This document shows, one piece after another, positions 16,417 to 55,803 of a DNA stretch of 64,000 nt. A program made the position numbers and the translations under genes. Under the pieces are notes generated by a model, which was not told the DNA's origin, did not search any database, and worked only from the letters and a program-made list of their open reading frames with translations. Each line of letters starts with the position of its first letter. Position 1 is the first letter of the stretch. The DNA comes from Pythium myriotylum (taxonomy: Eukaryota; Oomycota; Peronosporomycetes; Pythiales; Pythiaceae): contig JALJCQ010000017.1 of assembly GCA_023091665.1 (NCBI GenBank), positions 1,054,001-1,118,000 on the forward strand, written 5' to 3'.

Positions 16417-18411
16417 ATGGGCGCCACGGCCTCGTCGTCGCTGCCGTCGGCGCCGCGGCCGCCGCTCGACTACCACGAAGCGCTGCGACTGGCGACCGAG
16501 CGCCGCGGCGTCCGCGTCAAGGTGCGCGCGGCCTGCGCGAGCGTCGGCGACGGCGCGTTCGACCCGGCGCTGCGGATCGAGTGGATCGACGTCGAGATGC
16601 AGCAAGACGCGTCGCCGCAGCGCGTGCACCGCGAGCTGCGCGAGGCGCGCGCGCTCGTGGCCGTCTGGTTCGCGCTCTCGTGCTGTCCGGGCTTCGGCGA
16701 GGACGAGAACCCGGTCTTCTGGCACGACGCGCTCTTCAACAACACGGTCGAGCGCTGGCCCGACGCCGTCTCGAGCCTGCGGTTCACCTCGACGGCGAAC
16801 TGCGCCGAGCGGTCATTCCCACGCGTGAGGATCACGCCGGCGATAGGGTACGAGGAAATCACGATGACGACGTTCCTCGGCCATTTCCAGCCCGACGAAA
16901 GTCTGCGCGAGGCGATGGCCACGCTTCGGCCGTTCATGTGTCCCATTCGGTGGCGAGCAAAGTGGGTCGACGTGGCAGTTTGTGGCGTCGATGCGGAGAA
17001 GATGCTGGATGTGCTCGTGGACGTTCGTTCGAAACGAGATCCCGATGAGCACGAGTCGATATTCTTTCGGTTGAGCGCAGTTTATCTCCTGGACGGAGAC
17101 AAGGAGAGAGTTGACGCAGTCGCCGGATCTGTTGACGCCCATGTGTACGTGGAACAAGTCCTCAAGCGACCACGTACCCACTTGTTCAACAACGCACGAC
17201 GGTCGTCCGCGATGCAATCGAATCAACGTCTTCAGCTTGACTACAGGGTGTCTGCTCTACCACACTCCCGAGCCATTACATCGCTTCAGTTGTCAAGTTT
17301 TTGTGGTCTTGGAACAGATGACGTTGAAGCGGCTTGGCTAGGATACACGATTTTCCACCCGGAAGTTGAGATTCACGGCACTTCGTTTTCCCATCTGAAG
17401 ATCATACTTACTGCTCCACTTCGGGAGTCTGCTGTGCGCATGTTGAGGCTCATGTCGGTTGGCAACAACTTGCTGTACGCCATGGGCAAGGCTGCTTCGC
17501 CTTCCACTGGATATCACCATGTCAAATTGCGGCCAGGAGTCGTGATTCGATCCAAGCATCCTCTGTACAGTCGCGATCTCGATATCATTCTTGATCACGA
17601 AATGTGGGTAACATCGTGTGAGTCAATAACCGATTCATCTGTGATTCCTGCGCTAGTCTCGGTTGTAGTTCCGGGCATCGGAATTCAACAGGTTGAAAGG
17701 GACGACATTCTTGACTGCATCACGCAGAATCCCAGTCCACCACACGTTGAAGATCTGCAGTTAACATATCGCGCCGTGCCCTCCGCAGGAAGCCTCGTCG
17801 AGTTCCTCAAAGTCTTCCACGGCAACCTCACTAGTTTGGAATTGAAGTGGCCCCGAGGGTTTACTGTATCGGCAGTACTAGATGTGTTACAAGCATGTCC
17901 ACAACTCAAACGCTTATCAATCAGTCATGACGGCTCCTGTTGGTCAAATGTTGACGCCATTCAAGATTTGCCCAGTCTACCTCGGCTCGAGACCATCGAA
18001 CTTCACGTCCGAAGCTCACTGCCACAGCCACTTTCGGCACCCCATCTCGGTCACTTGAAGGTCCTACGGATCCATACGGAACACTTGGCACGATTTGACC
18101 GTTATCGAAGCGCTGCCGAAGCGATGTTCGCTACCTATCCTTGCCTTCAGGCAATCGAGTGTGGCAGTCGGCTGGTTAAGGCCAACAACTCCTCATCTGA
18201 TCACAGCGGAATGTCGATGCTGAGTTCCCGAGTGTGTGAAGTGGCATTACGCCCCCTGGCGGTCAAGTCGCGGGTTGCTTTTCTCAGCGCGATTCGGCAT
18301 AGTTCAAGCTCAGCTTCGTCGATGTGCCGGTTGAGTCGGGATGAAGTCGCTTTGATCTTCGGTTTCTCGTCAACTGACGTCCCACGAAGATTCGTATTTC
18401 AGAATTTTTGA
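16417..18411 (+). CDS. MG-LRR family member A (SH3b-like plus LRR, intact)
   Basis: A 664-residue uninterrupted frame and the leftmost of eight paralogues. It starts MGATASSS, with Gly2 and Ser6 as in an N-myristoylation signal. Landmarks in order: VWFALSCCPGFGEDENPVFW (about residues 83-102), a charged middle part, AAWLGYTIFHPEVE, the GNNLLYAMGKA segment, an SH3b-like stretch HHVKLRPGVVIRS to VVPGIGIQQVERDDIL, leucine-rich units with ACPQLKRLSISHDGSCWS, and a C-terminal KSRVAFLSAIRH followed by LSRDEVALIFGFSSTDVPRR, which looks like a degenerate F-box helix. The N-terminal 120 codons are markedly more GC-rich than the rest. Function is unknown; a membrane-tethered adaptor is a plausible inference. 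Confidence 0.8.
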   Translation: MGATASSSLPSAPRPPLDYHEALRLATERRGVRVKVRAACASVGDGAFDPALRIEWIDVEMQQDASPQRVHRELREARALVAVWFALSCCPGFGEDENPVFWHDALFNNTVERWPDAVSSLRFTSTANCAERSFPRVRITPAIGYEEITMTTFLGHFQPDESLREAMATLRPFMCPIRWRAKWVDVAVCGVDAEKMLDVLVDVRSKRDPDEHESIFFRLSAVYLLDGDKERVDAVAGSVDAHVYVEQVLKRPRTHLFNNARRSSAMQSNQRLQLDYRVSALPHSRAITSLQLSSFCGLGTDDVEAAWLGYTIFHPEVEIHGTSFSHLKIILTAPLRESAVRMLRLMSVGNNLLYAMGKAASPSTGYHHVKLRPGVVIRSKHPLYSRDLDIILDHEMWVTSCESITDSSVIPALVSVVVPGIGIQQVERDDILDCITQNPSPPHVEDLQLTYRAVPSAGSLVEFLKVFHGNLTSLELKWPRGFTVSAVLDVLQACPQLKRLSISHDGSCWSNVDAIQDLPSLPRLETIELHVRSSLPQPLSAPHLGHLKVLRIHTEHLARFDRYRSAAEAMFATYPCLQAIECGSRLVKANNSSSDHSGMSMLSSRVCEVALRPLAVKSRVAFLSAIRHSSSSASSMCRLSRDEVALIFGFSSTDVPRRFVFQNF

Positions 18412-19349
18412 GTTCCAGCTCCTGACACAAACCAAACAAGTCATGCCATGTTTGCTGGTTGTGTTGCAAGTGCCGACAACTTAATCGAGGTCGTGGTCCG
18501 ACAAATAGCAGGCCTCCAACTCTCATCGGCCGCGTCTTCGTATCTCCAACTTGGTTCTTGTAATGGATCTGCCGGCGACCGACATGAGTGGACGTTGTTA
18601 CACTGATGATGGCACATGCACTGACCGATCACCGCACACCCAGAGTGAATGGTAGAACAAGCAAGAGTACAGACTAGCTCTGCCCAGTTTGAGCAGCAGG
18701 GTTATTCGTAGGCTGACTTCTTCACTACGATCTCTTGTAGGGAATTTCTGCGGCTGACCTCAGGGACCTTACAACCCGCGTATCGGAATCCTCCATGACA
18801 CCATGGTTTGGTTCGAGAAGACGCCCAAGGCTGGATGTCCCACTGAGGCTGTGAGATAAGAGCGACGCTCGTCCACAGGCGCAAATAATGGCACGCAAGC
18901 ACGTTGACGACACCAAAACCTCGACATCGCCGAAGTCTTGACCAACTCACGTGGACGGAGATTGCTCATCTTCCTAGCTGGTCGACTCACAACGCGTCCA
19001 ACTCTCCCGAATCAAGGGAGACCGCCTTGGCAAATGAGACCGTCAGAATTCTCAGACACGTGACCTTACGCAGGCTATAGATACCTAGATAAACAAACCA
19101 AATAGACCTCAATTGAATCGCCGATTGATCGCCAATCTTCACCCGTATGTCGGAGGCATCGTTTACGAAGTATGTGTGTATTATGCAGAGCGAGTATCGC
19201 CTACTATTAGTCGCGGGATATACCTCTTCAAGAACTAGGGCGGTGCCAAACACTAACATCGCCGCTCGAGAGTCACCAACTCTTACCGTCGCCCTATTGG
19301 CAGCAGAAGAACCGACATTGGTTTCTTCATAAATGAAGCCGCAGACACT
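18412..19349. other. Intergenic region without a supported gene
   Basis: About 940 bases between member A and the glycine-rich repeat gene (which ends here on the minus strand). Only short open frames are present and none resembles a known protein. Confidence 0.4.
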
Positions 19350-24658: not shown

Positions 24659-26792
24659 ATGGGCAACCAGCCGGCCAAGGGCTCGCCCTCGGCGCCGCGC
24701 TCCACGCTGAGCGAGCGCGACGCGTGGGACGTCGCGACGGCCTGGAACAAGCAGCTGCGCGGGCTCGCTCGGCTCGCGCTGGACCGCGCGGCCCCCGGCG
24801 ACGCGAGCGACTTCGAGCTCGTCCGGCACTTCGAGTGGGTCGACCTCGACTTGAGTGCAGTCGAAAGCGATGAGCACAAGAAGCTCGCCAAGTCGGTCAA
24901 GGTTGCGCACGCCGCCGTGACGGCGTGGTTTGCGCTGTCGTGCTGTCCGGGCTTTTCGGGCCGCGAGAATCCGGTGTTTTGGAAGCGTGTGTTCTCGGCG
25001 ATTCAGTCGTCGGGACCGGCCATCAGCGACCAAGTCGGCTTCTTGATCGACCCGAGAAGCCGTTCCCACGCTTGCGCGTGAAGTACAAGAAGGGACAGGA
25101 AGCTTTGGTGCTGCAACAGCTCTTCAAGCAGACGCCTGTGCTGGACAAGAAGCTGCAGCTGATCTTGCCCAAGCTCAAGCCGTTCATGCGGGACTCGCGG
25201 TGGCAGCGAGATATTCCAATTGCAATTCAAACGACGCGGGTAGAAACACTCTCTGCTGCATTGTCATGTATGCGGATGACCCACCGAGAAACCCGCCTCA
25301 AGCTCATTGGGATTACATTGAGGATGCTGACATTCAGTTGGATACTAGTGTTGAAGATCTGCTCGAGAATACGGACATCCACTTCTTCATGGGTACTAGC
25401 TGCCACGGATTCAATCTGACGCTCCAGAATCGAGCAATCCATGGTCTTCTCAGCCAACAAGGCCGCTCACCTGGTCGAGGTTGTCGGATGCACATCCGAA
25501 TGCTAGACCTGAACTCCAAGAATGCTAGTCGAGGTCAGCAAGTGCGAGACTTTCGCTGTTGCTGTTCAGCACTGCCGCACTTCCCCGGGGTTACAGGAGT
25601 TCGCTTTGCTTCCGGGTCGACTCTCCATCTGGACGAGATCAATGCAGCCTGGCTCGGTTACTCTATCTTCCATCCCGACGCTCAAGCAAACGGCGCCTCA
25701 TTCTCCGAGCTCACTCTCGGCCTGGGATTAATCAGCCGCCCTGCGTTACGAGCGATGGAGAAGATGGCAAAGGGCAACAATCTCCTTGTCGCAATGGGCG
25801 AGCAAAGCCAGGTGGCGTCGTATTACCAGCAAGTCAAGCTTCGGGCAGGAACAATTGTACATGGTACAACCGATGGGTTTCGCCGAAACGAGCTCTATAC
25901 CTTCAAGTCGAATGCGTGGATCACGTCGTGCGAGGTACTCGACAATCCTGAAGCTTCGCAATCGTGGGTACTCGTGGTTCTCCCTGGGTTTGGCATTGGG
26001 TTTGTGCGCAGCGATGCCGTTCTGGAGTGTCGGTGTCGAGAACCGGGTGGGTCGAGTGTACGAAAATTGCGGCTACAACTTCCTGAGGACTATGACGGCA
26101 ACGGTGAGCTCAGAGAAGTTTCTAAAACACTCTTTCTCGATGTGTTGTCTCTGCTTGGAGGATCTTTACGGTACCTGGACGTGTTGAGCACTTATCCACT
26201 GTCAGTCAGTCTGGTCCGGAATATTTTGCGCCGATGTCCTCAACTCAAAAGCCTCCGGATACGTCACGACGGCTCGTGTTGGTCTGATCCGACTGCAGTT
26301 CTTGATACCCCCGAGTTGCCGGTGCTCGAGGAGTTGGAGATGCAGATAGGGTTCGTGTTCGCACCATTCATTGCGCCGCAGCTGAAACATCTGCGAGCTC
26401 TCAGGATCACCACACCGTACTTGGAACGTTTCGCAGTCAATCGAAAGTCGTTCCTAGCTGTCCTGGAACGTTATCCCCAGCTTGAGTACGTCAACTGGCT
26501 AGGAATGTTCGTTCGCCCCGATTGGGACATCCGCCGACCGAACAATAGCTACGATGATCAGTGCCAGCGGACTCGCGATTTGCTTGGGGAGACAGTGAAT
26601 TCTATACACAACGTTGCCCTCGTCCCATTGACACCGATGGCAAAGCTCTCCTTTCTGAGCGTCGTTCGACACTTCGGCACAGCCTGTATTCCACCTCCTC
26701 CGATTGGAACACTAGGCCAAGACGTTGTGGAGAACATTTTCAGCTTCAGCTCAAGTACTGTGAAGCGGCAAATCCACATCCGCAACCGATGA
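24659..26792 (+). pseudogene. MG-LRR family member B with two apparent frameshifts
   Basis: Starts MGNQPAKGS and has the family core TAWFALSCCPGFSGRENPVF. The first frame ends at a stop at 25079-25081, but the next frame continues the alignment (EKPFPRLRVKYKKGQ) from about 25050. A second shift near 25265-25275 moves into the frame that runs from YADDPPRNP to the stop at 26792. The remainder carries every landmark: INAAWLGYSIFHPDA, GNNLLVAMGEQ, VKLRAGTIVHGT, VVLPGFGIGFVRSDAV, RCPQLKSLRIRHDGSCWSD, KLSFLSVVRHFG and LGQDVVENIFSFSSSTVKR. The lesions are single and the rest is intact, so this is either a young pseudogene or two assembly errors. Confidence 0.75.
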
Positions 26793-27954: not shown

Positions 27955-30223
27955 TCAGTTACCTAACCATGAACGACCAGACAAAACTGACCAGAATGAA
28001 TAATCGACTGAGCTGTCCTTTCTCGGCGACTCGAACACTGCTTCAGTGCAGATCGGGTCAACCCACAGCTCCCGTTGCACGCCATCGACCAGCCCGAAGA
28101 TGTTTTTCAATACCTCAGACGGCAGCTTCGCCACAACTGAATCCTCTTCAGCGGCGTGTATCACACTCAGAAAAGCCACGCGGCGCTTGCATCGAACCTC
28201 ACGATGGCGAGCGCCTTGGATGCCTTCATCTGGATCGAGTCCCAAAGTCGAGTACGAAAAACGCAAGGCTTCGTCGAATCCTTTCAGCTTGGCTCTTTCT
28301 GCGATCCTGATAGTATCACACCAGTGGAAGTATCGAAGTGACATGCTTCCACGCAAGAGGCTGCAAACACTGTCTCTGCTCCCTTCAAAACTGTCGAGGA
28401 GTCGCAGTGCTGCAAGTTCTCGAAAAGCTGTCTCGAGTGCTCGTTTGCTCGGTCGCTGGAACGATCTCACTTCTGCCTCGACCTCAGATCTTACGTACCA
28501 CGTCGGGTCTACTCTATACGTAGATGGCGAAATACAGAGCTCTTTCAAGTGCGGCAGGCCGTCCACATCATCATGCGACCAAACAGAGCCATCGTGGTTA
28601 ACATGCAGTATCTGTAATCGCGGGCAAGAGAGCAGAACCGCACGTAAAGTCTGATCGTCCAAGTACCCGCAAGAGTTGATGTCCAAGTACGTGAGGTTTG
28701 CTCCCACGAGGCAAACAAAATCGAGTGCTGCAGAGACTTCCTCCGGCGTTACCGTTCTCGCGTACTCGAAATCAATCGAGAGAGACTTGAGAACTGAGCC
28801 GTTTGCATCGCACACTTTGATACCAGAAATCTCGGACGACTGGACCCAGCCAAGTCCGACACCAGGCACAATCAAGCGAACCCAGTCGCCAGGAACAGCA
28901 GTGCTATCGTCACAAAGTGCCACGTATGAGTCGTTGTCAAGTTGCACCAGCACAGAGGCCGAGTCCGTTGCATCCACTCGGACGAACGCTCCTCCACGAA
29001 GTCGAGCTGTCCGGTACTTCGTCGATGTGCTCGCACCGATGCCGTCAACAGCGTGAAGGTTGTTGCCAGTCGACATGAGTCGCATGGCCGAGACGCACTC
29101 TTGTGTGATCCCATCCAAGGATATTCGCAAGTGTCTCCACGAAGACGTTTTGGTCGATGGATGAAACACCGCAAACCCAAGCCACGCCCAATCCGCTCGT
29201 GAGAATGACGGATAGGGCATTGACACCTCTAGGGCGACTTGAGACTCGTATGGTCCATTGGAAGTGTATCCATCATATCGCGGAGATGGTAGTGCCAGAG
29301 ATACTGTCTTCACGTTCATTGCATGAGGAAGAGCCGAACACACGGATTCTAGTACTCCGTCACCAAGAAGGTCGCGAGTCAAGTTGATCTCGGAGTAACG
29401 CTTCTGCTCGGCTGCCGACGACGACTGGATCCTCATGAGAACGCGGACATTCGCCGTCGCTGAGGCTGAGTCCTCAGGCAGCGGCACAGTGATGGTGTTC
29501 GAGGACTCCGCAACAGCCTCAAACTTGGGCCAGCAAGCGCCAATATCTCCTTCATATGGAGGTGGATATGTCATGGGTACTGCACGGATGTCATCGAGTT
29601 CGCGCTCAGAAACCCTGACCTGCACCGCACGTTCGAGCCGATCAGGGAGAAGAAAGGGGCGGAGTTTCTTGAAGATCGCCGTCAACTTCATGTCGTCACT
29701 ATCATTCCTCAGCCACGGATGTGCCCCGCACATCATTCTGGATATCCATTGACTGTCGAAGTGGACGCGTGGGAACTCGCACCCTGGCAAGTCGAAGAAC
29801 CGGATCGCGTCGGTGATCTCAAACATGAACTCTGAGGTGGGTCCCGCGTTCCCGGGCTGAAGTAGTAACTCCGCGAAGACACGTTTCCAGAAGCGAGGAT
29901 TCTCGCGACCACTGTACCCGGCGCAACAAGAGAGCCAAAACCATGCCACCGTTGCAAACCGGCCTAGGTCTCTTCTGGTGGATACGCGACGGTGGCGTTT
30001 GCATGTGAACTCGACCCATGCGTAACTTAGATTTGTTGTCGGGGTCGGAGTCAGTTGCGAGTCGTACAGGAAAATCATACGACCATGAGCGCGTGAGACT
30101 CGAGCTCCAGGCCATTGCGATCGCCCACGCTGCACTCTCCGTGAGAACCGTCTCGTTGAAATCGAGATGCAGACCATCTCCACTGGGGGCTTCCCACTTT
30201 GACTTCGATGGCCACGCTCCCAT
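27955..30223 (-). pseudogene. MG-LRR family member C, N-terminal frameshift
   Basis: The main frame (27955 to about 30030) carries VAWFWLSCCAGYSGRENPRF, ITDAIRFFDLPGCEFPRVHF, WAWLGFAVFHPST, GNNLHAVDGIGAS, ARLRGGAFVRVD, LIVPGVGLGWVQSSEI, SCPRLQILHVNHDGSVWS and, near the C-terminus, RVAFLSVIHAAEE with LPSEVLKNIFGLVDGV. Its own 5' part does not match the family. The expected N-terminus, starting MGAWPSKSKWEAPS with AAWAIAMAWSSSL, lies in another frame from 30223. The two frames meet near 30020-30035 where one reads DSDPDNKSK and the other TPTTNLSYAWVEF. One indel separates an intact gene from the present one. Gly2 and Ser6 are conserved. It is head-to-head with member D (about 157 bases between ATGs). 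Confidence 0.75.
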
Positions 30224-30380: not shown

Positions 30381-32507
30381 ATGGGTAACAGCTCCTCTCA
30401 CGACGCGTTGGACGAGGAGGATGCATGGGCCTTCGCGACGGCCTGGAGCAAGAAACTCCACGCTCTCAGCGACGTCATCACTGTCCGCACAGACGTCTCC
30501 CGGAGTAAGAAGGTCAAACCCATCAAACAGATCACCTTCGTGTTCCCAGTCGACTGCTCCACACTTCGCAAAAAGACAGTTGGCGTCGTCCGAGACGCGC
30601 TGCTTGCGTGGTTCGCGCTATCGTGTTGCTCGGGCTTCGGCGTGGACGAGAACCCGCGGTTCTGGTGCAGAGTCCTGACGTCGTTTGCAGACAGCAATGC
30701 GAACTCGGCGATCTCCAATTACAAGTCTTGCGAGCACGACTCTTCTCCAAGCAACTGTCAGTTCCCTACAGCTTACATCGAGTCCAAGTATAGCGTGGAT
30801 TTTTCGGTCCTCAAGGTCCTCTTGGATGTATCGCTCATGTCGCGCAAACTCAAGTCGTTGCTCCATAAGATCAAGCCATTTATGAACGGCGACCTGTGGG
30901 CTTGCGAGATCCCCGTTATAGTTCGTCCGGCGAGCTATGACACGCTATATAAATTGCCCACATTGCAACCGAGTCGGCAGTCGACGTCGGCGTTCTTGGA
31001 AGTGCGCTCGTTGATTCTCCATCCCAATGTGGGTCTATACGATGAGGTGGTGCCCACCTATGAAGCTTGCCCAAGTTTACACATAAGCCTATCCGAGTGC
31101 GCGACAGCCAATCTATCCATTAAATCAGCTCCAATCGTTGACCGAGCTCTTGGTGGCGAGTCGAGCACGACTAATTGCTTGTGTATCGAGAGGATTCATC
31201 TTCAGAGCGATTTCCCAATTTGGGGCTCAGCACTTCCGCGCTTACCTTCCACGAGCACAATCGTGATTGCAAACGTTACTGACCCAAATCGCTCTCTAAG
31301 TACCGTGAGCGCCGCGTGGCTGGGCTATGCGCTATTCTCTCCGCTGCGAGTGGCAAAAGGGTCTGCTTTCAGCAACTTGGTGATCAAAATCGAGCTTCTC
31401 GACCCCACGACGATGGATTCTATCGAGAGCATGGCCAAGGGGAACAATTTGATGATCGCACTCGGACTTGCAAACAATGCAACCGCGGGTTATCACCTAG
31501 CAAAGCTTCGCGCGGGGACCAACATCTTTGAAACTCGAGACAGTTGCCGAGACAACTCAGCCGGTACTCTGCGCCGCCTCGCGCACGAAGAATGGGTCCC
31601 GCTGTTGGTGAATACTTACCATTCCTCGACAGAAGACGAATGGGTGCGAGTGATCGTTGCCGGTCGTGGCATCGGGTGGACCAGTCGTGATAGCATCATC
31701 GAGTCTGCTTCGGTCCCTGCTGCTGAGTCACCTTTGCGTCGGATGCGCGTACAAATGGCTGATGGAATGATTGACGATGAAGCGTTCAGCCTTCTGATTC
31801 GGTTACTCTCAGCTGTCGGCCGTCGATTGACGTATCTGGATATTCTAAGCTGCGATCTTTTCTCTGCAACCCAAGTGCATGACATCTTGCGCAAATGTCC
31901 GGGGTTGAAAAGTCTCTGCATCGGCCACGACGGGTCGTACTGGTCAGATCTTCCAGCGGCCGAGGCTGCACTACCATCGCTGAGCGAGCTGGAACTTCGC
32001 ATCAGGCGGAGGCTGCATTCGACGCAGAACGAGGTAATGAGACCACGCGCACTGACACGTGTGGATCTGCAGCCTCTCAGATCTCCACTCCTCAACAATC
32101 TCCGCTCTCTCCGAGTGACTGCAGCTGAAGGTTTCAGCAATCATCCCTGCAGCAAACGTTTCTTCGCAGAAACACTACGACAGATTCCCTGCCTGCAGTA
32201 CGCGAGATGGGTAGTCGAGGAACCGAGTCTGCTCGCACCTTTCACGTTCGCGAGCACGCCTGGAGTCTCCCACGAGTTTGACGACGTCAGCCGCTTCGCG
32301 CTCGCCCCGCTGTCGCTGACATCGCGACTGGCGTTTCTCAGCTGCGTTCGCTCGCCCATTGGCCACTCGACATCTTCACGCATCGGCGAGATCGACGACG
32401 ACGTCGTTCGCCACATCTTCGACTTCTCGTCCGAGCCCGTCCCGAGACTCGTTTGCGTGCAAAACTTTGACTTCACGCCTCGTCGTATGATATGCCGATT
32501 AAGATAA
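30381..32507 (+). CDS. MG-LRR family member D (intact)
   Basis: A 708-residue uninterrupted frame if the ATG at 30381 is used, giving MGNSSSHDALDEEDAWAFAT with Gly2 and Ser6 of a myristoylation signal; the frame opens three codons earlier at a TTG. Landmarks: LAWFALSCCSGFGVDENPRF, KIKPFMNGDLWACEIPVIV, SAAWLGYALFSPLRVAK, SMAKGNNLMIALGLANN, an SH3b-like segment YHLAKLRAGTNIFET to RGIGWTSRDSI, LRR-like LTYLDILSCDLF and KCPGLKSLCIGHDGSYWSD, and the tail LTSRLAFLSCVRSP followed by IDDDVVRHIFDFSSEPVPR. Divergent from member C, which carries a lesion, so D may be the functional one of the pair. Confidence 0.85.
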   Translation: MGNSSSHDALDEEDAWAFATAWSKKLHALSDVITVRTDVSRSKKVKPIKQITFVFPVDCSTLRKKTVGVVRDALLAWFALSCCSGFGVDENPRFWCRVLTSFADSNANSAISNYKSCEHDSSPSNCQFPTAYIESKYSVDFSVLKVLLDVSLMSRKLKSLLHKIKPFMNGDLWACEIPVIVRPASYDTLYKLPTLQPSRQSTSAFLEVRSLILHPNVGLYDEVVPTYEACPSLHISLSECATANLSIKSAPIVDRALGGESSTTNCLCIERIHLQSDFPIWGSALPRLPSTSTIVIANVTDPNRSLSTVSAAWLGYALFSPLRVAKGSAFSNLVIKIELLDPTTMDSIESMAKGNNLMIALGLANNATAGYHLAKLRAGTNIFETRDSCRDNSAGTLRRLAHEEWVPLLVNTYHSSTEDEWVRVIVAGRGIGWTSRDSIIESASVPAAESPLRRMRVQMADGMIDDEAFSLLIRLLSAVGRRLTYLDILSCDLFSATQVHDILRKCPGLKSLCIGHDGSYWSDLPAAEAALPSLSELELRIRRRLHSTQNEVMRPRALTRVDLQPLRSPLLNNLRSLRVTAAEGFSNHPCSKRFFAETLRQIPCLQYARWVVEEPSLLAPFTFASTPGVSHEFDDVSRFALAPLSLTSRLAFLSCVRSPIGHSTSSRIGEIDDDVVRHIFDFSSEPVPRLVCVQNFDFTPRRMICRLR

Positions 32508-41289: not shown

Positions 41290-43524
41290 ATGGGGAACAA
41301 GACGTCAACCTGGACCCGTCGGGGCTTGGATACGCCTCGAGATCAAACAGACGATCACAATGAAGACGATTTCAGCTGCGGAGGACTCAGCGCACGCGAC
41401 GCGTGGGACATCGCGCTCACCTGGCGTCAGCAAATACAGGGATGCGTCCGCCTTGAGACAGACGCACACAAAGCCCAGTTTTGCGTCGTCCCCTCTTTTG
41501 AGTGGGTCACCCTCGTCTTCGATGGGTCGCTTTCAGGTGGACTCAAGGAGGTTGTAGACGTCGACCAAACCGTTGCCGCTGCACGTGCATCCATCATCGT
41601 TTGGTACGCTCTCTCGCGTTGCACAGGTTTCGGCATTGATGAAAACCCGACTTTCTGGCGACGCCTGTTCTCAGAGCTGTATTTCCCAGAGTACCCCAAG
41701 GATGATATCGTATTGCTCAAACATCGAGCCGATCGTCCACAGTTGCCGATTACAGATGCAGTCCGTTTCTTCAGTGATACAGCAAAATCATTTCCTCGCG
41801 TGTGCATCGTTCCAAAGCAGAATGCGGAGGAAGCTTGCATTCGGGAGTTCTTCTCTTCGACGTATTTCGATCAGAGACTAAGTAAAGCTCTAGAGAGCCT
41901 TCAGCCACACGTGATCCCATCTATATCGAGTCAGCGCGCCATTCTCGTGTCGATCGAGGGTGTTGAGGTGGAGAAACTCGCTAGAATTGTTTGCGTTGCT
42001 GGTATCTTTGAGAAGGAGGATAAGCCTTTGATGGGTTTAGATTGGCAGCTTCAATACGTCTTCGTCCAGGGTAACGAGCTACAGCAATCAAGTGCGATAT
42101 TTTCAATCTTGACCAATACGCCGGCAAACATTGTAGTTCGAAAGTGCGAATCGTGGAACCTGTTGCCGGCTCCTCGCCAATCAGCATCGTCACTGATCAC
42201 TCCATTCGACGTTCGGCATGGTCAAAATCGACGAACTCGAGTCTACCTTCTTCAAATGTCCGACTCAGGAGGATATCCAAACACCTTTCCAGCGATTTGC
42301 TCAAGTCTGCCGTTCGCTACCGTGGCCGATTCGATCGATATGTCCTTACCGACGCATCGGGGACGAGTTTACGAGACGATATGCACGAGTGACTGGGCTT
42401 GGCTTGGGTACACATTGTTCCACCCAAATGCCGCGGCAGAGTCGTCCTCGTGCTGCCTTGCCATCGATCTCGCCCAAATGACTGATAGCAGCTTGGATGC
42501 GCTTGAAAAAATGGCGATCGGGAATAACCTCCTGTCCACCATCGATGGTTCAAAGACCTGTATCGGTTACCATCTTGGACGAATTCATGCTGGAACCTCC
42601 ATCCGGGCCGATCCTGTGGAATCAGCCAACATGATTGCAGGGTTTGAGATCGACACATGGGTCACTCTCTCGGTTCAAGCGAGTGAATCAGCCACAACAA
42701 CGCGGTGGGTTCGAGTTATCGTCCCAGGCTTCGGTTTTGGTTGGATTCATCCTTTTGATATTCTCGAGATTATCACGCATACGAGCCTGAGGTCGTGCGT
42801 AAAGAGGTTGCGGGTCAAAATGGGGGGTGCACAACCGAACGGGGCAAGTCATTTGACAAGACTTTTATCACTTCTTGGGGACGGTCTAGAGCATCTTGAT
42901 ATTCAAGGCAAAAGACCCTTCGGACTGTCTCAGATGCAGTCAATCTCGTACCAATGTCCATCGCTGAAGTCTTTATTTGTTCACCACGACGGTTCATTCT
43001 GGGTGAAGAAAGAGGTGACTGCGGCCCCGCGGAGCTCGAAACTGGAAGAACTGGGTCTGTACTGCCTGGATGGAAATGCAAGGTTGTACCAACTGAGCTC
43101 ACCGCTTCTCGAAAATATGAGAATGTTTCGAATTGTGTCTCGATCACGCACATCCTCATTCGCAATCAACCAGAAGATGATTCTCGGTACACTTGTGAGA
43201 TATCCAGGCTTGACACATGTGAGTTGGTCAAACAATCCTGCCGACCCAACGTGGTGGAAGCACATTCGCTACGATGAGCGAAAGAGGCGTTCAGACAAGT
43301 ATCTGAGCAAACTTCGACGCGGGGTTCACGGTGTCACGCAAGGACCGACGAGACTTGACTCCAAGCTAGGGTTTATGAGCGTCGTCCGTTGCAAGGGCAC
43401 ATCGGCAATCGGCTGTCTCGGACCAGACGTTTGCCGCAATATCTTCAGTTTTTCAACAAGTTTTGTACCACGGGAGATTCATGTTGAGGAGGATGATTGT
43501 ACCGAGGGAATTGCTTCGTGGTGA
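41290..43524 (+). CDS. MG-LRR family member E (intact)
   Basis: A 744-residue uninterrupted frame. N-terminus MGNKTSTWTRRG with Gly2 and Ser6 as in myristoylated proteins, then LSARDAWDIALTWRQQIQGC (very close to member F). Landmarks: VWYALSRCTGFGIDENPTFW, ITDAVRFFSDTAKSFPRVCI, LQPHVIPSISSQRAILVSI, DWAWLGYTLFHPNAA, KMAIGNNLLSTIDGS, YHLGRIHAGTSIRADP to VIVPGFGFGWIHPFDIL, YQCPSLKSLFVHHDGSFW, and the tail LGFMSVVRCKG with LGPDVCRNIFSFSTSFVPR. The second Cys of the LSCC module is kept while the first is Arg. It lies tail-to-tail with member F (99 bases between stops). Confidence 0.85.
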   Translation: MGNKTSTWTRRGLDTPRDQTDDHNEDDFSCGGLSARDAWDIALTWRQQIQGCVRLETDAHKAQFCVVPSFEWVTLVFDGSLSGGLKEVVDVDQTVAAARASIIVWYALSRCTGFGIDENPTFWRRLFSELYFPEYPKDDIVLLKHRADRPQLPITDAVRFFSDTAKSFPRVCIVPKQNAEEACIREFFSSTYFDQRLSKALESLQPHVIPSISSQRAILVSIEGVEVEKLARIVCVAGIFEKEDKPLMGLDWQLQYVFVQGNELQQSSAIFSILTNTPANIVVRKCESWNLLPAPRQSASSLITPFDVRHGQNRRTRVYLLQMSDSGGYPNTFPAICSSLPFATVADSIDMSLPTHRGRVYETICTSDWAWLGYTLFHPNAAAESSSCCLAIDLAQMTDSSLDALEKMAIGNNLLSTIDGSKTCIGYHLGRIHAGTSIRADPVESANMIAGFEIDTWVTLSVQASESATTTRWVRVIVPGFGFGWIHPFDILEIITHTSLRSCVKRLRVKMGGAQPNGASHLTRLLSLLGDGLEHLDIQGKRPFGLSQMQSISYQCPSLKSLFVHHDGSFWVKKEVTAAPRSSKLEELGLYCLDGNARLYQLSSPLLENMRMFRIVSRSRTSSFAINQKMILGTLVRYPGLTHVSWSNNPADPTWWKHIRYDERKRRSDKYLSKLRRGVHGVTQGPTRLDSKLGFMSVVRCKGTSAIGCLGPDVCRNIFSFSTSFVPREIHVEEDDCTEGIASW

Positions 43525-43623: not shown

Positions 43624-45771
43624 TCATGATTTCCTGATCTCGAAGCCATCACTGCCTATGAACACGCTTCGTGGCAGAGGACTGGTGGAGAAGCTGCAAA
43701 TAATCGAAAGAATGTCATTATCGAAGCGACTCAGAGCGGTCGAAACCGACTGCTTGTGGTGGACGACGCTCACAAATGCGATCTTGGAGTTTCTTGTCAT
43801 CGGCACCTGTGAGACCTCGTTGTGCCCAACGTCGTATTGGCGCTGAAGGGATAAGGAGTGAAGCCGTCGCTTCTCGTAGCTTGAATATTCGGGTCCTCTT
43901 GCGTAGAGCCAGTGTGCAAATATGATGCCAGGGAACAGCGCAAGCGTCGAAAGAAACGTTTTGTGGGATGGGGCGAAACTCTCCGGGCTCAAAGTCCTTA
44001 GCCGTAAAGTCTTAAGTTCTATGAGATCCGATGAACGGAGTGGGTGTAATCTTGCATGCGAGTCGAGAAGCGAATCAACTGAGAGCTCCAGTTCCTTCAA
44101 TCGTGGTGTACTCACCTCTGGCATACTTTGGGACCAAAACTCACCGTCATGACAGATTCTGAGAGTTCTGAGCGACTGGCAGCGATGAAGAATACTTTGG
44201 ACGGCGTCTTTGTTCAGCGGCAGGCTATCGCTCATGTCGAGCGACTGAAGTCCCTCTCCTAACACCGAAAGCAAGTCGAGCACGGAAGACATGATCGACT
44301 GGTGAAGCTCCCCACTCTGGTCGATAACGTCAGGAATGCCAAGACGTAGATGACGAACACACGATCTTCCGGGTGGACGCGTGGCCAATTCTGCAATGCT
44401 ACTCCGTGGGATCCACCCAAGTCCGTAGCCAGGAATGACGGCACGAACCCAATCATCGAGTTTCTTGACATGCTCCGCTTGCTCGCAAAGAGTGACCCAC
44501 GAGTCTGAGTCAAGCTCAGCAGTGAGATCGGTTCGATTGGTGGCGTCGAGGCGCGCCGTGGCAGAAGTCCCGATGCGTGCAAGGGAATAACTGGTCACGG
44601 TTTTTGAACTGAACTGTAGCGCTGATAGCAGGTTGTTACCAATCGACATTCGCTTGAAGATGTCGAGGTTGAATGCATTACTGTCGTCGTCCACGAGTTG
44701 GATCTCGAGTTGATGAAATGTCCCGGAGTCACTCGAATCAGGATGGAAGATGGCGTAGCCGAGCCAAGCCCACTCATTTGTACTGAGTGCTTTTGCGTCC
44801 ATTCGATCTGAGGCCAACTGCACACCCGTCAGCGAGCGTATCTGAGGCAACGCCGAACAAACGACTGCAATCTTGCTTCGAGATCCGACCGATCGAGTCA
44901 ATGAGAGCGTGTGGGTCGAAAACAGACACGGCGATGACGCTGCAGAATTCGGCAAAAGTGTATCGACAGTGCCGCGATGGGTGTGAAAAAGATGCGAGAA
45001 TTCGCAATCTTCAACCACGATCTGCGCGCTGCATTGTATCGAAACCTCGCGAATTGCTGTCGTGTACCTTGTGTCTTGGCGGCGTAGTACTACCATCTCC
45101 AAGGAAAACACAGGGATATCAGAAGACCGTGGCGGGATCATCACGACTCGTGCGACCTCCTCGATGTGGAGCCCTTCTATGGCGAGCGGAATCTTCCGTC
45201 TGGCGAACACTGACTGGCAAATAAATGGCTGAAGCTTGTCTAGCACTTTTTGGAGTTTTCTATCGCCCGTGTTTCCTGCTAAGAGCAGCACGTGCAGACA
45301 CTCGCGATCCTGTGGGAACTTGGGCACAATTCTCACACGTGGAAACGTCTGGTCCTCGCCATCGAAGAACCGAACCGCATCCGAAATCGGTCGCTGCGGT
45401 CGGTATGGAGTGGTTCTCCTCACGCCGCCTGGGCTCTTCTTCGGCTGCGCGAGTGCGTGGAGCTCCGAGAACACGCGCCGCCAGAAGTACGGGTTCTCAT
45501 GGCCGCCGTATCCGGCGCAGCAGCTGAGTGCGAGCCACGCGATGGACGCCGCGCGCGCCGCGAACGCTGCAGCTTTGGCGTCCTTGACTTCTTTGAGCCC
45601 GTCCGCCGGAGACCCGTTGAACACGAAGGTCACCCATGAGAAAATCGGGACGATGGTGTTCTGGGCCTCGCGCGATGCTGCGTCAGTCTCGAGACGCACG
45701 CAGCCCTGCAGCTGGTCCTTCCACGCGAGCGCGGCGGCCCACGCGTCTCGCTCGCCCAGGCGCTTCCTCAT
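43624..45771 (-). CDS. MG-LRR family member F, N-terminus lacking MG
   Basis: A 715-residue frame beginning MRKRLGERDAWAAALAWKDQ. The region upstream of this Met meets an in-frame stop after a few codons, so the Met-Gly leader of the other members is missing and membrane tethering by myristate is not expected. Landmarks: IAWLALSCCAGYGGHENPYF, ISDAVRFFDGEDQTFPRVRI, EWAWLGYAIFHPDSS, RMSIGNNLLSALQFS, LARIGTSATARLDA to VIPGYGLGWIPRSSI, HRCQSLRTLRICHDGEFWS and the tail KIAFVSVVHHKQ with FDNDILSIICSFSTSPLPR. It is most similar to member E (shared QLQGCVRLETDA near the N-terminus), so E and F are probably a recent inverted duplicate. Confidence 0.8.
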   Translation of the reverse strand: MRKRLGERDAWAAALAWKDQLQGCVRLETDAASREAQNTIVPIFSWVTFVFNGSPADGLKEVKDAKAAAFAARAASIAWLALSCCAGYGGHENPYFWRRVFSELHALAQPKKSPGGVRRTTPYRPQRPISDAVRFFDGEDQTFPRVRIVPKFPQDRECLHVLLLAGNTGDRKLQKVLDKLQPFICQSVFARRKIPLAIEGLHIEEVARVVMIPPRSSDIPVFSLEMVVLRRQDTRYTTAIREVSIQCSAQIVVEDCEFSHLFHTHRGTVDTLLPNSAASSPCLFSTHTLSLTRSVGSRSKIAVVCSALPQIRSLTGVQLASDRMDAKALSTNEWAWLGYAIFHPDSSDSGTFHQLEIQLVDDDSNAFNLDIFKRMSIGNNLLSALQFSSKTVTSYSLARIGTSATARLDATNRTDLTAELDSDSWVTLCEQAEHVKKLDDWVRAVIPGYGLGWIPRSSIAELATRPPGRSCVRHLRLGIPDVIDQSGELHQSIMSSVLDLLSVLGEGLQSLDMSDSLPLNKDAVQSILHRCQSLRTLRICHDGEFWSQSMPEVSTPRLKELELSVDSLLDSHARLHPLRSSDLIELKTLRLRTLSPESFAPSHKTFLSTLALFPGIIFAHWLYARGPEYSSYEKRRLHSLSLQRQYDVGHNEVSQVPMTRNSKIAFVSVVHHKQSVSTALSRFDNDILSIICSFSTSPLPRSVFIGSDGFEIRKS

Positions 45772-45943: not shown

Positions 45944-48082
45944 TTAAGATACTTCAGTACACTCGCCGACCCAGACATCGCGGAGCAGCGAGCCGGAGGC
46001 AAAGGCAAAGATATGGGAGCTGAGGTCTCGATGGACGCGAGCGACTGCAGACGAGGGGTTGCTGGTCTGTCTGGCGTGGACGACGCTGAGGAATGCCGCT
46101 CTAGCATCCAACTGTCGGTTTTCAAAGAAGCTGTTACCGAGCCACTTGTGGGTATTGATACGACCCTTGATATAGGCGTCGTCGACTTGGCTGAGGAAGC
46201 GCGTGTTGGCTCACTCGTTCGGGTCGCACACATGGAAATATGCTAGCTTGCGTAGAGAATTCACGAATGCGCAGACGGCAGACCTGTTTCGGGAGAAAGT
46301 CTGGTAGGTGGTGAGAACTCGCAGAGCCGACAGATGCTGGAGCACCGAGTTGAGCATGTCTTGGTGCGGCTGATGCAGGTCTCCACCGTCTAGAGATAGA
46401 CTCAATTGCTCGAGACGAGGAAACTTGGATAGCTCCTGTTGTTGGACTGGATACGTCCACATCGTGCTATCATGGGCTACACTAAGCGATTTGAGAGCCG
46501 GGCACGCAAGAAGCAATCTGCGCAGCTGATCAGCCGAGAATGCTCCACACCCACCGATATCCAATCGCTCCAATCGTGAGCCGAGGATCTCGATAAGGCG
46601 AAGCACGGCGTTGGAGTCGAAATGTTTGCCGCCGCGAACTCGCAGTCCGCGTAGCCACGACTCACCTGGTGGGTGAGACGAGATCCCAGTGATGGCGGAG
46701 GAGCGCACCCATCCAAATCCGACGATGGGAAGAACAATGCGGGCCCAGCCGTTGAGTTCAAACACTCGATTGGATGAGTCCACGCAGAGGTAGGCATACG
46801 TCGCATCGCTTAAATGGTGTGCGTCGCGGGCTTCATCGTTCGGAGATACTCGCACGACCGTGCCGGGGCAAATTCGCACTGCATGATACGAGAAGCTTGT
46901 GTAGTCTTGCGATTTAAGCTCGGCATTGACGAAATTGATACCCTTTCCCATCGATTCAAGCGATGCCACTGAATCGCGAGTGATGCTGTCAGCGCTGACG
47001 TCAAGATTCCGCCACGAAGAATGCTTCGTTTCAGGATGGAAGATGGCGTAACCGAGCCATGCCCATGTCATAGATTCGCTTGTCGAGGCCCCAACGGCAT
47101 CATCGGACTTGGTCAGGGACACAACCTGGACAGTTGAGACAGCTGTCGAGTATGGCAGCGCAGAGCAAATTCTGCTGATGAGGTCGGAGGAGGCAACGTC
47201 GTCGCTCATTCGAAGAGTCTGGAACCGAAATCCATCAGAGCAATTGCTGATGTAATCGCTAGGTGTTGTACGCGAAGATGCCAGCAAGCAGCGAGCGTCG
47301 TCCACGGACTGAACTTCAAATGCATCCATCGAGAGCTCGAGTTCTGACCGTTGGTGGGGATGTGGTGACTGGACGAGAACTGAATGCAGGCTAAAGTGAG
47401 GATCCCTCGCAGTGGGATTGCTCAATACCGCTGACACGTTCGTGACGGCGATTCCGCTTGTGCTTTCAAGGCGAACAGGAATCGTTCGTCTTGCTCGAGA
47501 GGGCATTACGTATGGCTCCAGCTGAAGTCGAATGAGCTCGATTTTGGCTTGCTCTCGTTCGGGAGTGGACGAAGTGAAGAATGCGTCGCATTGGGCAACG
47601 TTCTGATATTGGAGGTGGATCTGCGGGAACACGCACTCGGATGCATCAAAGAAACGCACAGCATCTGTGACGACGGGGAATGTGGGAGGGTACTTGAACT
47701 CGTCGCATGGCTGCTCACGCTGGAGCTCATTAAACACGCGTTTCCAGAATCGAGGGTTCTCTCTCGCACTGTAGCCGGGACAGCATGACAGCCAAAACCA
47801 TGCAAGCGTGGCAGCTCTCGCGACCGCTGCATCTTCTTGAGTATCTACGCGGATTTTGACCCACGCATAATTTCCGACCACCGAAAATGGGTCGACACGC
47901 ATGATCTCCTCCTTCAGCCGCAGCCGCTCGTGGCCGCTGTGAACACTTTGCAGCTGCTGGGCCCACGCCATGGCGATGGCCCAGGCCTCCTCTTCGGGGA
48001 CCGCAGGCACACCGAGTGGCGCGCCATGCAGCGCCTCAACGGCTTCGGCACTTGAGTGTGTCGACGGATCCGTTGTGCACAT
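45944..48082 (-). pseudogene. MG-LRR family member G with in-frame TGA
   Basis: The frame from 48082 (MCTTDPSTHSS) encodes 623 residues and then meets TGA at 46213-46211. The same frame continues without a shift for 88 more codons to TAA at 45944 and encodes the family tail: ARAAFLSVVHARQTS and VHRDLSSHIFAFASGSLLRD. A single nonsense change therefore removed the C-terminus. Upstream landmarks are all present: LAWFWLSCCPGYSARENPRF, VTDAVRFFDASECVFPQIHL, WAWLGYAIFHPETK, HAVRICPGTVVRVS to VLPIVGFGWVRSSAI, ACPALKSLSVAHDSTMWT. The N-terminus lacks Gly2. Readthrough or a functional truncated form are alternatives. Confidence 0.8.
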
Positions 48083-50450: not shown

Positions 50451-50581
50451 ACGGCGTCCTTTCACGAGGGCACGCCAGCGGAAGTTACACTCAAGACAGA
50501 CGATCCGTTACTCGTGTGTGAGCTCGCCCCACGGAACCCGTCTCGCTTTTGCAGCAACTCAGAGTGGGCCGGGAGTCTCGG

Positions 50582-50596: not shown

Positions 50597-50626
50597 ATCT
50601 TCTCCTCGACAATCTCCTCCGACCGA

Positions 50627-51121: not shown

Positions 51122-51760
51122 CAGCGCCCACAGTGTAGTGAGCACCACTCATAGTCAGTGAGAGTAACGCCTTCGATACGAATAAACAATCGCAAACAAC
51201 CACAACCGTCGACGTACTTCATATGCTTCAAAACGATATTTGAACAGCGGTGGCTGGTGGAGTCCACAGAGTCCAATGAGTCCGCTACAATGGCGGCGTA
51301 GGTCTTCCGGCTTCTTCGATCATACAGCCTCTTCAACTCGTCGACAGCTTGTTTTTGAACTACATGTTATGACAAAGTGTATTACAAAAGCTTCCCGCAA
51401 ACATTGTTGTTGGGAAGCTGATACTTCCGCAATGGGGAGGAGTTCAAAGCAGGTCCTAAGTGAAGAGGCGTTTGTCACAAGATAATGGACTCCAATATGA
51501 ACACTCACCATCCTTCACGTGGCACTTCACTGTCCTCATGTGCGATCATGATGGCCGCTCTCAATGGGATCTCGAGAGAGTCCATGTCGTTCCAAAGCCA
51601 CTGTCTCCCGTGGGTCGGGAAGTGCAGGAGTCAAAACCTCGTTAGCCGCAATGGTAATCAATATACGGAGCACGGTCGGCTCGAAGCGCTGCTGTGTACG
51701 CGATCACTTTCCAAAATTCCTTTGGACTCCCCAGTCGATCTTTCAACTACTCAAGCGACG
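51122..51760. other. Promoter region of the long elicitin-like gene
   Basis: About 640 bases. The right end includes the initiator-like element at 51704. The frame of the next gene opens upstream at 51485 but that part lacks a signal peptide and looks non-coding. Confidence 0.4.
51704..51718 (+). promoter_or_regulatory. Oomycete initiator-like element of the long elicitin-like gene
   Basis: TCACTTTCCAAAATT matches the YCAYTYYNCA-W pattern and ends 42 bases before the ATG at 51761, consistent with a transcription start here. Confidence 0.5.
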
Positions 51761-53251
51761 ATGCTCCGTTTCGGCGTTCTTATCTCATTGGCAATCGCAA
51801 CAGCGTCAGCTGCCGACTGCAACTTAATCAATCTCCTGCCGTTGGCCGACGATCCGCGAACCGCGCAGTGCTCCAAGGATGCGAACTACACCTTCCTCCC
51901 CCCTACCATCCCAACAGGGGACCAAAAGACCATGTTCTGCTTGTCTCCTACGTGCCGGGCCTTGCTTGCTAAGTTAGAAACCCTTCTTCCGACCGAATGC
52001 ACCCTCTCAGTCCTCAACCCGCCACTCCAATTGTACCAAGACCTTCTCAAACCACTAGAGAGGACGTGTGCATCCGCGGCCGCCCCTCTACCTGAAGCAC
52101 CTGCCACAGAACCAGATACACCTTCACCCGAGCCAACTGACGGTCCTGCCGATGTCCCTGTCGATACTCCTGCCGCTGGGTCCACCGATGGCCTCGCTGA
52201 CACCCCAGCCAATACTCCTGCCTCCGGTTCGACTGACGGCCCTGCTGATGCCCCAGCCGATACTCCTGCCTCCGGGTCAACTGACGGCCCTGCTGATGCC
52301 CCAGCCGATACTCCTGCCTCCGGTTCAACCGATGGCCCTGCTGATGCCCCAGCCGATACTCCTGCCTCCGGTTCGACTGACGGCCCTGCTGATGCCCCAG
52401 CCGATGCTCCTGGCTCCGGGTCAACTGACGGCCCTGCTGATGCCCCAGCCGATACTCCTGCCTCCGGGTCAACTGACGGCCCTGCTGATGCCCCAGCCGA
52501 TACTCCTGCCTCCGGGTCAACTGACGGCCCTGCTGATGCCCCAGCCGATACTCCTGCCTCCGGGTCAACTGACGGCCCTGCTGATGCCCCAGCCGATACT
52601 CCTGGCTCCGGGTCAACTGACGGCCCTGCTGATGCCCCAGCCGATACTCCTGCCTCCGGGTCAACTGACGGCCCTGCTGATGCCCCAGCCGATACTCCTG
52701 CCTCCGGGTCAACTGATGCCCCTGCTGATGCCCCAGCCGATACTCCTGCCTCCGGTTCGACTGACGGCCCTGCTGATGCCCCAGCCGATGCTCCTGGCTC
52801 CGGGTCAACTGACGGCCCTGCTGATGCCCCAGCCGATACTCCTGGCTCCGGGTCAACTGACGGCCCTGCTGATGCCCCAGCCGATACTCCTGCCTCCGGG
52901 TCAACTGATGCCCCTGCTGACGCTCCTGCGGTCGGTTCAACTGATGGTCCTGCTGACTCTCCCGTGGTTGGGTCAACTGATGGTCCTGCTGACGTTCCTG
53001 GTGCTGGGTCAACTGACGGTCCTGCTGGCGCTCCTTCGGCCGGGTCAACTGATGGCCCCGCTGATGTTCCGGCGGCTGGGTCAACTGATGGTCCGGCCGA
53101 TACCCCGGCTGGCGTTCCTACCAACGCAACTATTGTTCCTACGTCGCAGCCAACTGACGCTCCTGGCCCAGCACCAACTCTCGGTCTGAAGGCTGGACCA
53201 CCAACGTCAGCGCCGACGATGAAGCCAGCAGTGCCCAGGGCCCAGTGCTAA
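51761..53251 (+). CDS. Elicitin-like secreted protein with long repetitive C-terminal domain
   Basis: A 496-residue protein. The ATG at 51761 starts a signal peptide (MLRFGVLISLAIATASA) and is favoured over the frame's earlier Met at 51485. Mature residues about 19-106 are an elicitin domain with six Cys: DCNLINLLP, AQCSKDANY, MFCLSPTCRALL, ECTLSVLNPPLQLYQDLL and ERTC. Elicitins bind sterols outside the cell and are perceived by plants. A Pro/Ala/Thr/Ser/Asp-rich region of about 390 residues follows, including about 16 copies of a 16-residue unit like TPASGSTDGPADAPAD; such stalks are likely O-glycosylated and wall-associated. It ends PRAQC, matching the PRPQC end of the second elicitin here. 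Related to the gene at 57335. Confidence 0.93.
   Translation: MLRFGVLISLAIATASAADCNLINLLPLADDPRTAQCSKDANYTFLPPTIPTGDQKTMFCLSPTCRALLAKLETLLPTECTLSVLNPPLQLYQDLLKPLERTCASAAAPLPEAPATEPDTPSPEPTDGPADVPVDTPAAGSTDGLADTPANTPASGSTDGPADAPADTPASGSTDGPADAPADTPASGSTDGPADAPADTPASGSTDGPADAPADAPGSGSTDGPADAPADTPASGSTDGPADAPADTPASGSTDGPADAPADTPASGSTDGPADAPADTPGSGSTDGPADAPADTPASGSTDGPADAPADTPASGSTDAPADAPADTPASGSTDGPADAPADAPGSGSTDGPADAPADTPGSGSTDGPADAPADTPASGSTDAPADAPAVGSTDGPADSPVVGSTDGPADVPGAGSTDGPAGAPSAGSTDGPADVPAAGSTDGPADTPAGVPTNATIVPTSQPTDAPGPAPTLGLKAGPPTSAPTMKPAVPRAQC
52160..52925. repeat. About 16 tandem 48-base units in the elicitin-like gene
   Basis: A 48-base unit containing CTGACGGCCCTGCTGATGCC recurs in phase over this span and encodes TPASGSTDGPADAPAD with minor changes (TPGS, APGS, STDAPAD). 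The last copies degenerate toward the 3' end. Confidence 0.9.
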
Positions 53252-53462
53252 ACCGAAGACCCGTGAATATTCCTACGCGTCGCATTGAAGCGTCCAAGAA
53301 CTAGGGACGATACAGCTTTTGACTGCATAAACGCGAATTCTTTCATCTGTTACTTTTTTATTGTTGCTTCAACTTCCGAAATTGTGATCATCACCGATCA
53401 CAATAATACTGGTTTCATACCGGTACTGCGACTCTCACACCCAAACAACACGCGAAGCAGCC

Positions 53463-55803
53463 ATGACGGGGTCTTCGCCTCTCTGCGAGCTCTCGGAGGC
53501 GCGCGCGTCGGCCATCGCAGAGGCCTCGAGTGCGTCTCTCCAGGGACGACTGAGCCTCTTGAAGATCGAGTCCAGTTTCGAGATCTCGGCCGCGTACGAG
53601 TGAATTCCAACTCAAAATGGCAGACCCCGCCGAGGAGGGCACTGAGCCCGCGCTCGCGTGGATCCGCGAGGCTTGCGTGGTGTGGCACATGATCGCAAGC
53701 TGTCAGGACTTTGGTGGCCACGAGAACCCGACGTTTTGGAAGCGATTGGTTGACAAGATCGCGCGCGAGGTGCCCAAGAAGAAGATCAACAACCTCCCGT
53801 CGAGGGGGGAACGAGTGGCCTTCTGAAGAGAGACCATGGGTGTTTGCATCGGACCAATACCGGTTCTTCTCGGATCGAAGTGATCGCCACCTTCTCTTCC
53901 CAAGGTTCGGCCTCGAGCTGCCGTCGTCAGAGCTCATTAACGAACAAAATGACTAATGGGAAGCCTCAAAAGTCGGATTCGAACACGAAGGTGAGGGTGT
54001 CTACGTGAGCGCCGAGGAGAACGAGCACAAGTCTCTTGCAGACGAGGAGGACTTCATCAATCCGGGAACGCAGTGGATCGATCGAGCAGTTCGGGCATTT
54101 CTTGGAAACCTCTGCATCGGAATCAAGAATTGAAGGGCTTCACAGATGAACTTCTTCCGTATGGGTCGAGCCAGCGAAGCCTGACGAACCCGGTGGAAGT
54201 GGGCTTGAGCTTGACCAACCACTGCCCATTGAAAGGCGTTGCAGAGGTCTTGCACAAGATTATTGTGGAGTGTGCAGATTGACACTCTTCAGGGAGGAGC
54301 TCCTCAACTAACGATCACAATCTGTAATTTCCGTTTGTGGTGATTACTGAGGTTTCACTGAAGAAAGAGCTCGGAGAGGATCAAGAGGTTGTTGCATTGG
54401 CCAAGATCACTGAACTGTGTCCCATCAAGATACCTGAAATCACCATTGCTGTTCAAAGGAGGATGACTGAATCGACTCTGACAAGAATAATGCTGGCGCC
54501 TACGAGCAATCAGGCATCCTCCTCTGACCAAGTCCTTGCGACAAGCCTGAAGGACGCATCCTCTATTCAGATAGAAATCCTCTTTTCGGCGCTTTCTATA
54601 GCAGTCAGTGGCTCCTTGCGCGGAGTAATTATCCGTTCGATGCCGAACAAGTATGCTGTAGCTGGCTGGGCATGGCTGGCCTATGCTGTGTTCTACCCTC
54701 TCTACTGAACGGGGCATTCAGCTGCCTCGATCTCCAAGGGACCGACATATCCGAGAAAGCCGCGATTCGAGATGTTGCGTCGATTCAACGAACCTTGTAT
54801 TGCTTTGCCCACGGGACAGCGGATAAGAGTTTGATGGCCAAAGAAATCGGTGACCAGTAGTTTACACGTTGGTTCAGCTTCGCGCGGATGCCTTCTGGTA
54901 TGCGTCAAAATCTCTTCGAGGAGAAAAGATGCGTGCTCCTCAACAAGTTGTCACGGCAATCGTCCAGCAAACAGAGAATGATATTTCAGCTTACCTGGGT
55001 CTTTATGCGTGGTGATTCCTGGCTATGGGCCTCGTTGGGTGTCGCGCGAAGATATCATCAGGGTGGAACAATTGAATTCGACTAGGAGTGACATTTCCAG
55101 TCTTTGTATAGGCCCTTGTCGGGAGAATCGTAACATGTCGCCAAGAGTGTTGGGCCCCCTCGTTCAGGGAGCTCGGCTCATGGATATTTACAAGTGGGGT
55201 AGAGAAGCCGACGATTCTTCTTGATTTCCTCAACATGAGTCCAGACCTAAACCAACTCCGTGTGCAAAACCGAGGCGATTTATTTAGCGATTAGGACGAC
55301 CGTGCAACAAGTGAGCGACCGGGACTCCAAAGCCTCTCCTTGGAGCGTATTGAAATGATTTGTTTCGATAATTTTGGGCCTCTCTCGGCTCCTTCCAAAT
55401 TTGCGTGGAAGACCTGTCTTCGAAACTTGTCGGAACTTCAGATCTGGACGTTCGGGACTGGAGAACCACACGAAAAAACCATACGACAGATTCTGTGCGA
55501 GGGATACTCGATTGAGAAGCTCGTTTGGAGCAACTGTACGTGGAAAAGAATCACAACCCACCCGACGTACGAGGAGGGGCATTCTTCATCTCTCAAGATA
55601 CTCGGGTTATCGAATTCGCCTCAGCCTTTGGCTCAGCGCTCGTTAACAAAGATGGCCACGTCGCGCTCTTGAGTGTAATCAAGCATTGCAATACGAAAAT
55701 TTTTTCAAGCGCACTTGCACGATTTGGGGAAGATGTCGTCAAGTTAATTGGCTCGTTTGCGACTACGGATATCCCACGAGCGGTTTGGGTCCAAGATCGC
55801 TAG
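53463..55803 (+). pseudogene. MG-LRR family member H, decayed
   Basis: Pieces of the family occur in order but in several frames with stops between them. From 53463 a frame reads MTGSSPLCELSEARASAIAE, matching the DAWxxAxAW region. From 53617 another reads VWHMIASCQDFGGHENPTFW, the family's core module. Near 54655 WAWLAYAVFYPLY matches AWLGYxxFHP. Near 55005 VIPGYGPRWVSREDIIR matches the SH3b-like end. Near 55395 and 55640 come the LRR remnants and HVALLSVIKHCN with FGEDVVKLIGSFATTDIPR. At least five frame changes and several stops rule out a functional product. The extent of the decay shows the family turns over. Confidence 0.8.

Follow-up and report, generated by a model that had tools for sequence, protein, structure and literature searches.

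A cluster of leucine-rich repeat genes in Pythium myriotylum as a branch of a large family of predicted cytosolic proteins

Copies in the cluster and the wider family

We analysed a 64,000-nucleotide stretch of the Pythium myriotylum genome (C17:1054001-1118000, hereafter the window; assembly searched, 58.7 Mb in 55 contigs), where eight related genes, named here A to H, encode proteins with a predicted leucine-rich repeat (LRR) solenoid (Table 1). Copies A–G give mutual tblastn matches of considerable length, the best being F against E at E 2.9e-121, with identities of about 25–37% in long alignments of window copies, whereas H reaches E <1e-3 over no more than some 60 residues near its 5' end, with a best E of 1.4e-7, and two further pieces, AWLAYAVFYP at 54670 and LSV...FGEDVV at 55669, are still legible. 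An earlier sequence-only reading of this DNA had proposed a family of eight paralogues in both orientations, and the paralogy is borne out by the long matches for A–G and by pieces for H. The states assigned to the copies were also correct: A, D, E and F are open (664–744 codons), B carries two frame breaks, C one break, G one stop, and H is decayed. In copy C, a family-like N-terminus, MGAWPS..., sits upstream in a different frame, placing the break in the N-terminal part; C and D lie head to head with about 200 bp between the starts of their open reading frames (ORFs). In copy G, C-terminal similarity continues in the same frame past the stop, to about 45953. The shared motifs are present, their wording having been slightly too strict: WFxLSCC is exact in five of the eight copies (A, B, C, D, G; variants WLALSCC in F, WYALSRC in E and VWHMIASC in H), as is AWLGYxxFHP (A, B, E, F, G; variants AWLGF in C, ...FSP in D and the piece of H given above).

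Table 1. Coordinates of the family copies, of the parts of copy F and of neighbouring genes (positions in the window)
Feature	Position	Strand	Description
Copy A	16417..18411	+	open, 664 aa, start MGATAS
Copy B	24659..26792	+	two frame breaks; N-terminal piece from 24659, start MGNQPA
Copy B, middle piece	~25036-25254	+	other frame than N-terminal piece
Copy B, last piece	25266-26792	+	open frame, 508 aa
Copy C	27955..30177	-	740 aa open frame; first ~50 codons outside family frame
Copy D	30381..32507	+	open, 708 aa, start MGNSSS
Copy E	41290..43524	+	open, 744 aa, start MGNKTS
Copy F	43624..45771	-	open, 715 aa, start MRKRLG, not myristoylation-type; reference for structure model
Copy G	45953..48082	-	623 aa up to in-frame stop at 46211
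Copy H	53641..55803	+	decayed, pieces only
F, N-terminal cap	45457..45750	-	residues 8-105; WLALSCC..ENPYFW on helices 65-83, 94-105
F, first LRR part	44776..45345	-	residues 143-332
F, SH3b-like barrel	44374..44601	-	residues 391-466, inserted within solenoid
F, second LRR part	43798..44373	-	residues 467-658, contains CPxLKSLxIxHDG
F, conserved C-terminal tail	43648..43797	-	residues 659-708; predicted local distance difference test (pLDDT) mostly <50
Repeat-rich frame	19350-22067	-	905 codons
Neighbouring repeat frame	22891-24021		Gly/Ala/Val repeat
ASPM-like protein	33471-40064	-	2197 aa
RNase H-like frame, first	49497-50138	-	RVT_3
Elicitin-domain gene, long	51485-53251	+	PF00964
Elicitin-domain gene, short	57335-57877	+	PF00964
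Small protein, second	59816-60469	-	WVRYWRTQF end
Small protein, first	60946-61608	+	WARYWRTQF end
RNase H-like frame, second	63263-63910	+	RVT_3

The eight copies do not make up the whole family. The range 16417..55803 correctly marks the start of A and the end of H, but its limits are those of the window and not of the family, because six further copies lie on the same contig out to about 70 kb past the right end, five of them within 30 kb and the sixth at about 1186 kb. With F as query, 24 matches were found across the genome, and queries from other branches add copies on contigs C9, C15, C17, C19, C22, C27 and C30. Together, 120 matches from five queries merge to 68 places in this genome; counts for large families of this kind are lower bounds, and some merged places may be two pieces of one gene; one of the five genome searches scored 63 of 86 candidates. 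The branches are linked to each other: the F query finds L025, L026 and L028, the L028 query finds kin of L026, and the L026 query finds F, with L028 absent among the matches listed for it. Frames read by eye largely follow a common order (N-terminal part, LRR, AWLxxxxF, GxGWV, CPxL), and most end in the tail SVxxx..LDxxVLxxIFxF. Judged by these sequence comparisons, the window genes are a branch of a large family rather than a complete family.

The same reading had described the family as expanding and turning over quickly. Loss does occur, as half of the eight copies in the window are broken or decayed, but rapid turnover is weakly supported, terminal branches being long and young copies few. 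In a tree of 20 members, the median length of the terminal branches is 1.11 changes per site, and copies from elsewhere (L007, L012, L016) are placed among those of the cluster; the identities of about 25–37% indicate that most duplications are old. The only young copies seen are C, L012 (contig C3) and L019/L020 (contig C26). On both of these other contigs, D-like pieces adjoin the C-like copies on the opposite strand, so the C–D block seems to have been copied. The ratio of nonsynonymous to synonymous substitution rates (dN/dS), a comparison that the sequence-only reading had proposed, is 0.23–0.42 over whole alignments of young copies, corresponding to purifying selection in the pairs tested. 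For C and L012, the youngest pair with a full-length partner, it is 0.31 (NG86) or 0.38 (YN00), being lowest in the N-terminal module (0.17–0.20) and highest in the tail (0.43–0.79). The sequence data are consistent with an old family that has undergone some recent copying and loss, without clear rapid turnover.

Protein architecture

The architecture was read from an AlphaFold2 (AF2) model of copy F, fold searches and profile searches. The order in the family is an N-terminal cap (WFxLSCC..ENPxFW), an LRR solenoid, an SH3b-like barrel following AWLGYxxFHP, further LRRs and a C-terminal tail, which is perhaps an LRR C-cap. The solenoid is recognized in the AF2 model and by fold matches with low whole-chain TM-scores, and profile matches to LRR proteins reach 5e-6; Pfam LRR matches are all below the cut-off in the 26 proteins scanned (7 + 10 + 9). 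The first LRR part is the least conserved, with a mean pairwise identity of 0.19 (14 rows). The N-terminal module, thought from the outset to lack a known domain, indeed matches nothing in Pfam, among PDB sequences or among PDB folds at the search sensitivity applied, whereas the view of the motifs as separate modules gives way to a single LRR-solenoid architecture. With moderate confidence, the computations show a solenoid of F-box/LRR-NLRP shape preceded by a conserved N-terminal alpha/beta module, an inserted SH3b-like barrel and a conserved tail.

The inserted barrel likely has the SH3b fold. In the F model it matches 9ovi_A with a probability of 0.99, TMt 0.66 and a root-mean-square deviation of 3.2 over 70 columns (E 0.11). 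The first Pfam scan of single barrel segments hit ten families, four of SH3 type (SH3_3, SH3_4, SH3_YKFC_2nd, GW) and six unrelated; in the second scan, three of eight segments matched an SH3 family, three matched unrelated families only and two matched none. All these sequence matches are below the Pfam cut-off, the best at E 0.004, with unrelated families at similar E. Shuffled segments gave an SH3 match in 0 of 10 cases, and profiles of barrel segments did not find SH3 chains among PDB sequences. The barrel is similar in fold to bacterial-type SH3 domains (Pfam SH3_3, SH3_4; PDB 9ovi); unlike them, it lies inside an LRR protein.

Although the solenoid shape is shared with the LRR domains of NLRP, NOD and NLRC proteins and with ribonuclease inhibitor, the family has its own N-terminal cap. 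No Pfam match to the NB-ARC or NACHT domain of nucleotide-binding LRR (NLR) receptors was obtained in the 26 proteins. The building blocks are known, and their arrangement, as read from the sequences, appears undescribed: among the matches listed by a literature search, no description of this cap–LRR–barrel–LRR–tail order was found.

Oomycete LRR receptor kinases, proposed as microbe sensors (PMC2939053, PMC10390575), are also oomycete LRR proteins, but in them short LRR parts are combined with a transmembrane helix and a kinase (PMC2939053), whereas the LRR part of the window family is long and no protein kinase domain was detected in Pfam scans of the 26 family proteins. The PMC2939053 survey counts LRR proteins with a transmembrane helix, reports a kinase in nearly all oomycete ones and treats them as possible innate-immunity receptors. 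Since no match of the family reached a Pfam cut-off in the 26 proteins and the family has no clear membrane helix, surveys of this type would probably miss it, with its 68 or more merged places in one genome.

Protein starts, proposed role and alternatives

The N-myristoylation consensus is M-G-x-x-x-S/T. Among the 18 nearer copies, G is at position 2 in 11 (A, B, C, D, E, L007, L011, L012, L014, L015 and L018) and MGxxxS is found in 10, S being at position 6 in every M-G copy except B; F, G, H, L016, L022, L023 and the C26 copy start otherwise. As background, of the 487 ATGs in the window that are followed by 60 open codons, family members included, 10 have such a start; the family counts come from related copies and hence are not independent. 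The start residues are kept although the stretch from the start to the LSExDAW block varies greatly in length and letters. N-myristoylation is predicted for the M-G copies and so for part of the family. Among the distant members (L024–L028, L031–L039), an M-G start is present in one of 14, several of these frames being perhaps incomplete at the start. This one, L039:101-2398 on contig C15, begins with MGSSWS, suggesting that the lipid-anchor type of start may predate the branch found in the window or have two separate origins. A signal-peptide-like N-terminus was not seen, the highest mean hydropathy of any 11-residue stretch among residues 1–45 being 1.65 in 23 sequences, fragments included; in a scan for transmembrane helices, 19-residue hydropathy reaches 1.72 at most in the seven window ORFs and 1.99 in L025.

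We somewhat favour the interpretation that the large family to which the window branch belongs consists of cytosolic LRR proteins acting as receptors or adaptors, many of them membrane-tethered. The M-G copies would be N-myristoylated and placed on the inner membrane face, the variable first LRR half would form the partner-binding face, the conserved cap might couple to a downstream partner shared by all copies, and a second binding site may be provided by the barrel. The number of copies and the divergence of their LRRs point to receptors or adaptors that differ in specificity. Should many copies indeed be myristoylated proteins of the cytosol with variable LRRs, they would be candidates for an unstudied recognition layer.

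The best-placed of the alternatives, though improbable, is that these proteins are substrate receptors of SCF-type ubiquitin ligases, whose F-box, located either in the N-terminal module or in the tail (LxxDVxxxIFxFxxxxxxR), has diverged too far to be recognized. F-box/LRR proteins (FBXL2, FBXL5, FBXL17, TIR1, COI1, MAX2/D3) have the same solenoid type and are among the top fold matches, the best of their profile matches have E 4.7e-5 to about 1e-3, the others being weaker, and the tail pattern L-x-x-[DE]-[VL]-x-x-x-I-F resembles the consensus of the first F-box helix. However, the LRR resemblance extends to NLRP, RNA1p and ribonuclease inhibitor, and Pfam found neither an F-box nor a SOCS-box in the scanned sets of 7, 10 and 9 proteins or in 16 tails, only LRR models of F-box proteins. 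A fold search with the N-terminal module alone gave no useful match, a result that by itself does not decide the matter. Unlike F-box/LRR proteins, the family also has a solenoid split by a barrel and M-G starts.

A purely structural role is slightly less probable still: scaffolds of the cytoskeleton or flagellum with no recognition role, whose copy number reflects dosage or drift, would agree with the axonemal and radial-spoke LRR proteins among the fold neighbours and with the purifying selection in the tested pairs, whereas the large copy number, the strongly divergent first LRR half and the broken copies would be unusual for a structural part, and the M-G starts point to membranes. A narrower form of the receptor interpretation is about as doubtful, namely an intracellular membrane-tethered recognition repertoire resembling NLR/NOD proteins devoid of a nucleotide-binding domain, with a constant signalling cap, a variable LRR half and a barrel that may bind cell-wall peptides, serving defence against microbes or self/non-self recognition.

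Host-directed effectors entering plant or animal cells are very unlikely, since, although the genes are multi-copy, clustered, partly decayed and near elicitin genes, as in some effector families, the N-terminal hydropathy is low (the 23 sequences above), 3 of these 23 have an RXLR-type string within their first 120 residues and 0 of 23 a crinkler-type (LFLAK-type) string, and myristoylation-type starts fit cytosolic synthesis and retention. Membership in the RXLR or crinkler (CRN) classes, taken as a signal peptide plus RXLR or LFLAK, was rejected by hydropathy and string counts.

Neighbouring genes

Several other genes lie within or beside the cluster (Table 1). The Elicitin domains of the two elicitin-domain genes, with E 4.7e-19 and 2.9e-13, are in keeping with an oomycete, and the long gene has an extended Pro/Thr/Ala/Asp-rich repeat. 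The 905-codon frame consists mostly of a near-perfect tandem repeat, and the opposite strand also has long open frames there; its neighbour has a different repeat and a similar N-terminus. The abnormal-spindle-like protein, with ASH, CH and IQ motifs, is located mid-cluster. The two RNase H-like frames, of which the first scores under the Pfam cut-off, may derive from retroelements. Finally, two small proteins encoded in divergent orientation have a Cys-containing end in common (CWIAT..TC... in the first and CWVAT... in the second), and most of the length of the first has no Pfam match.
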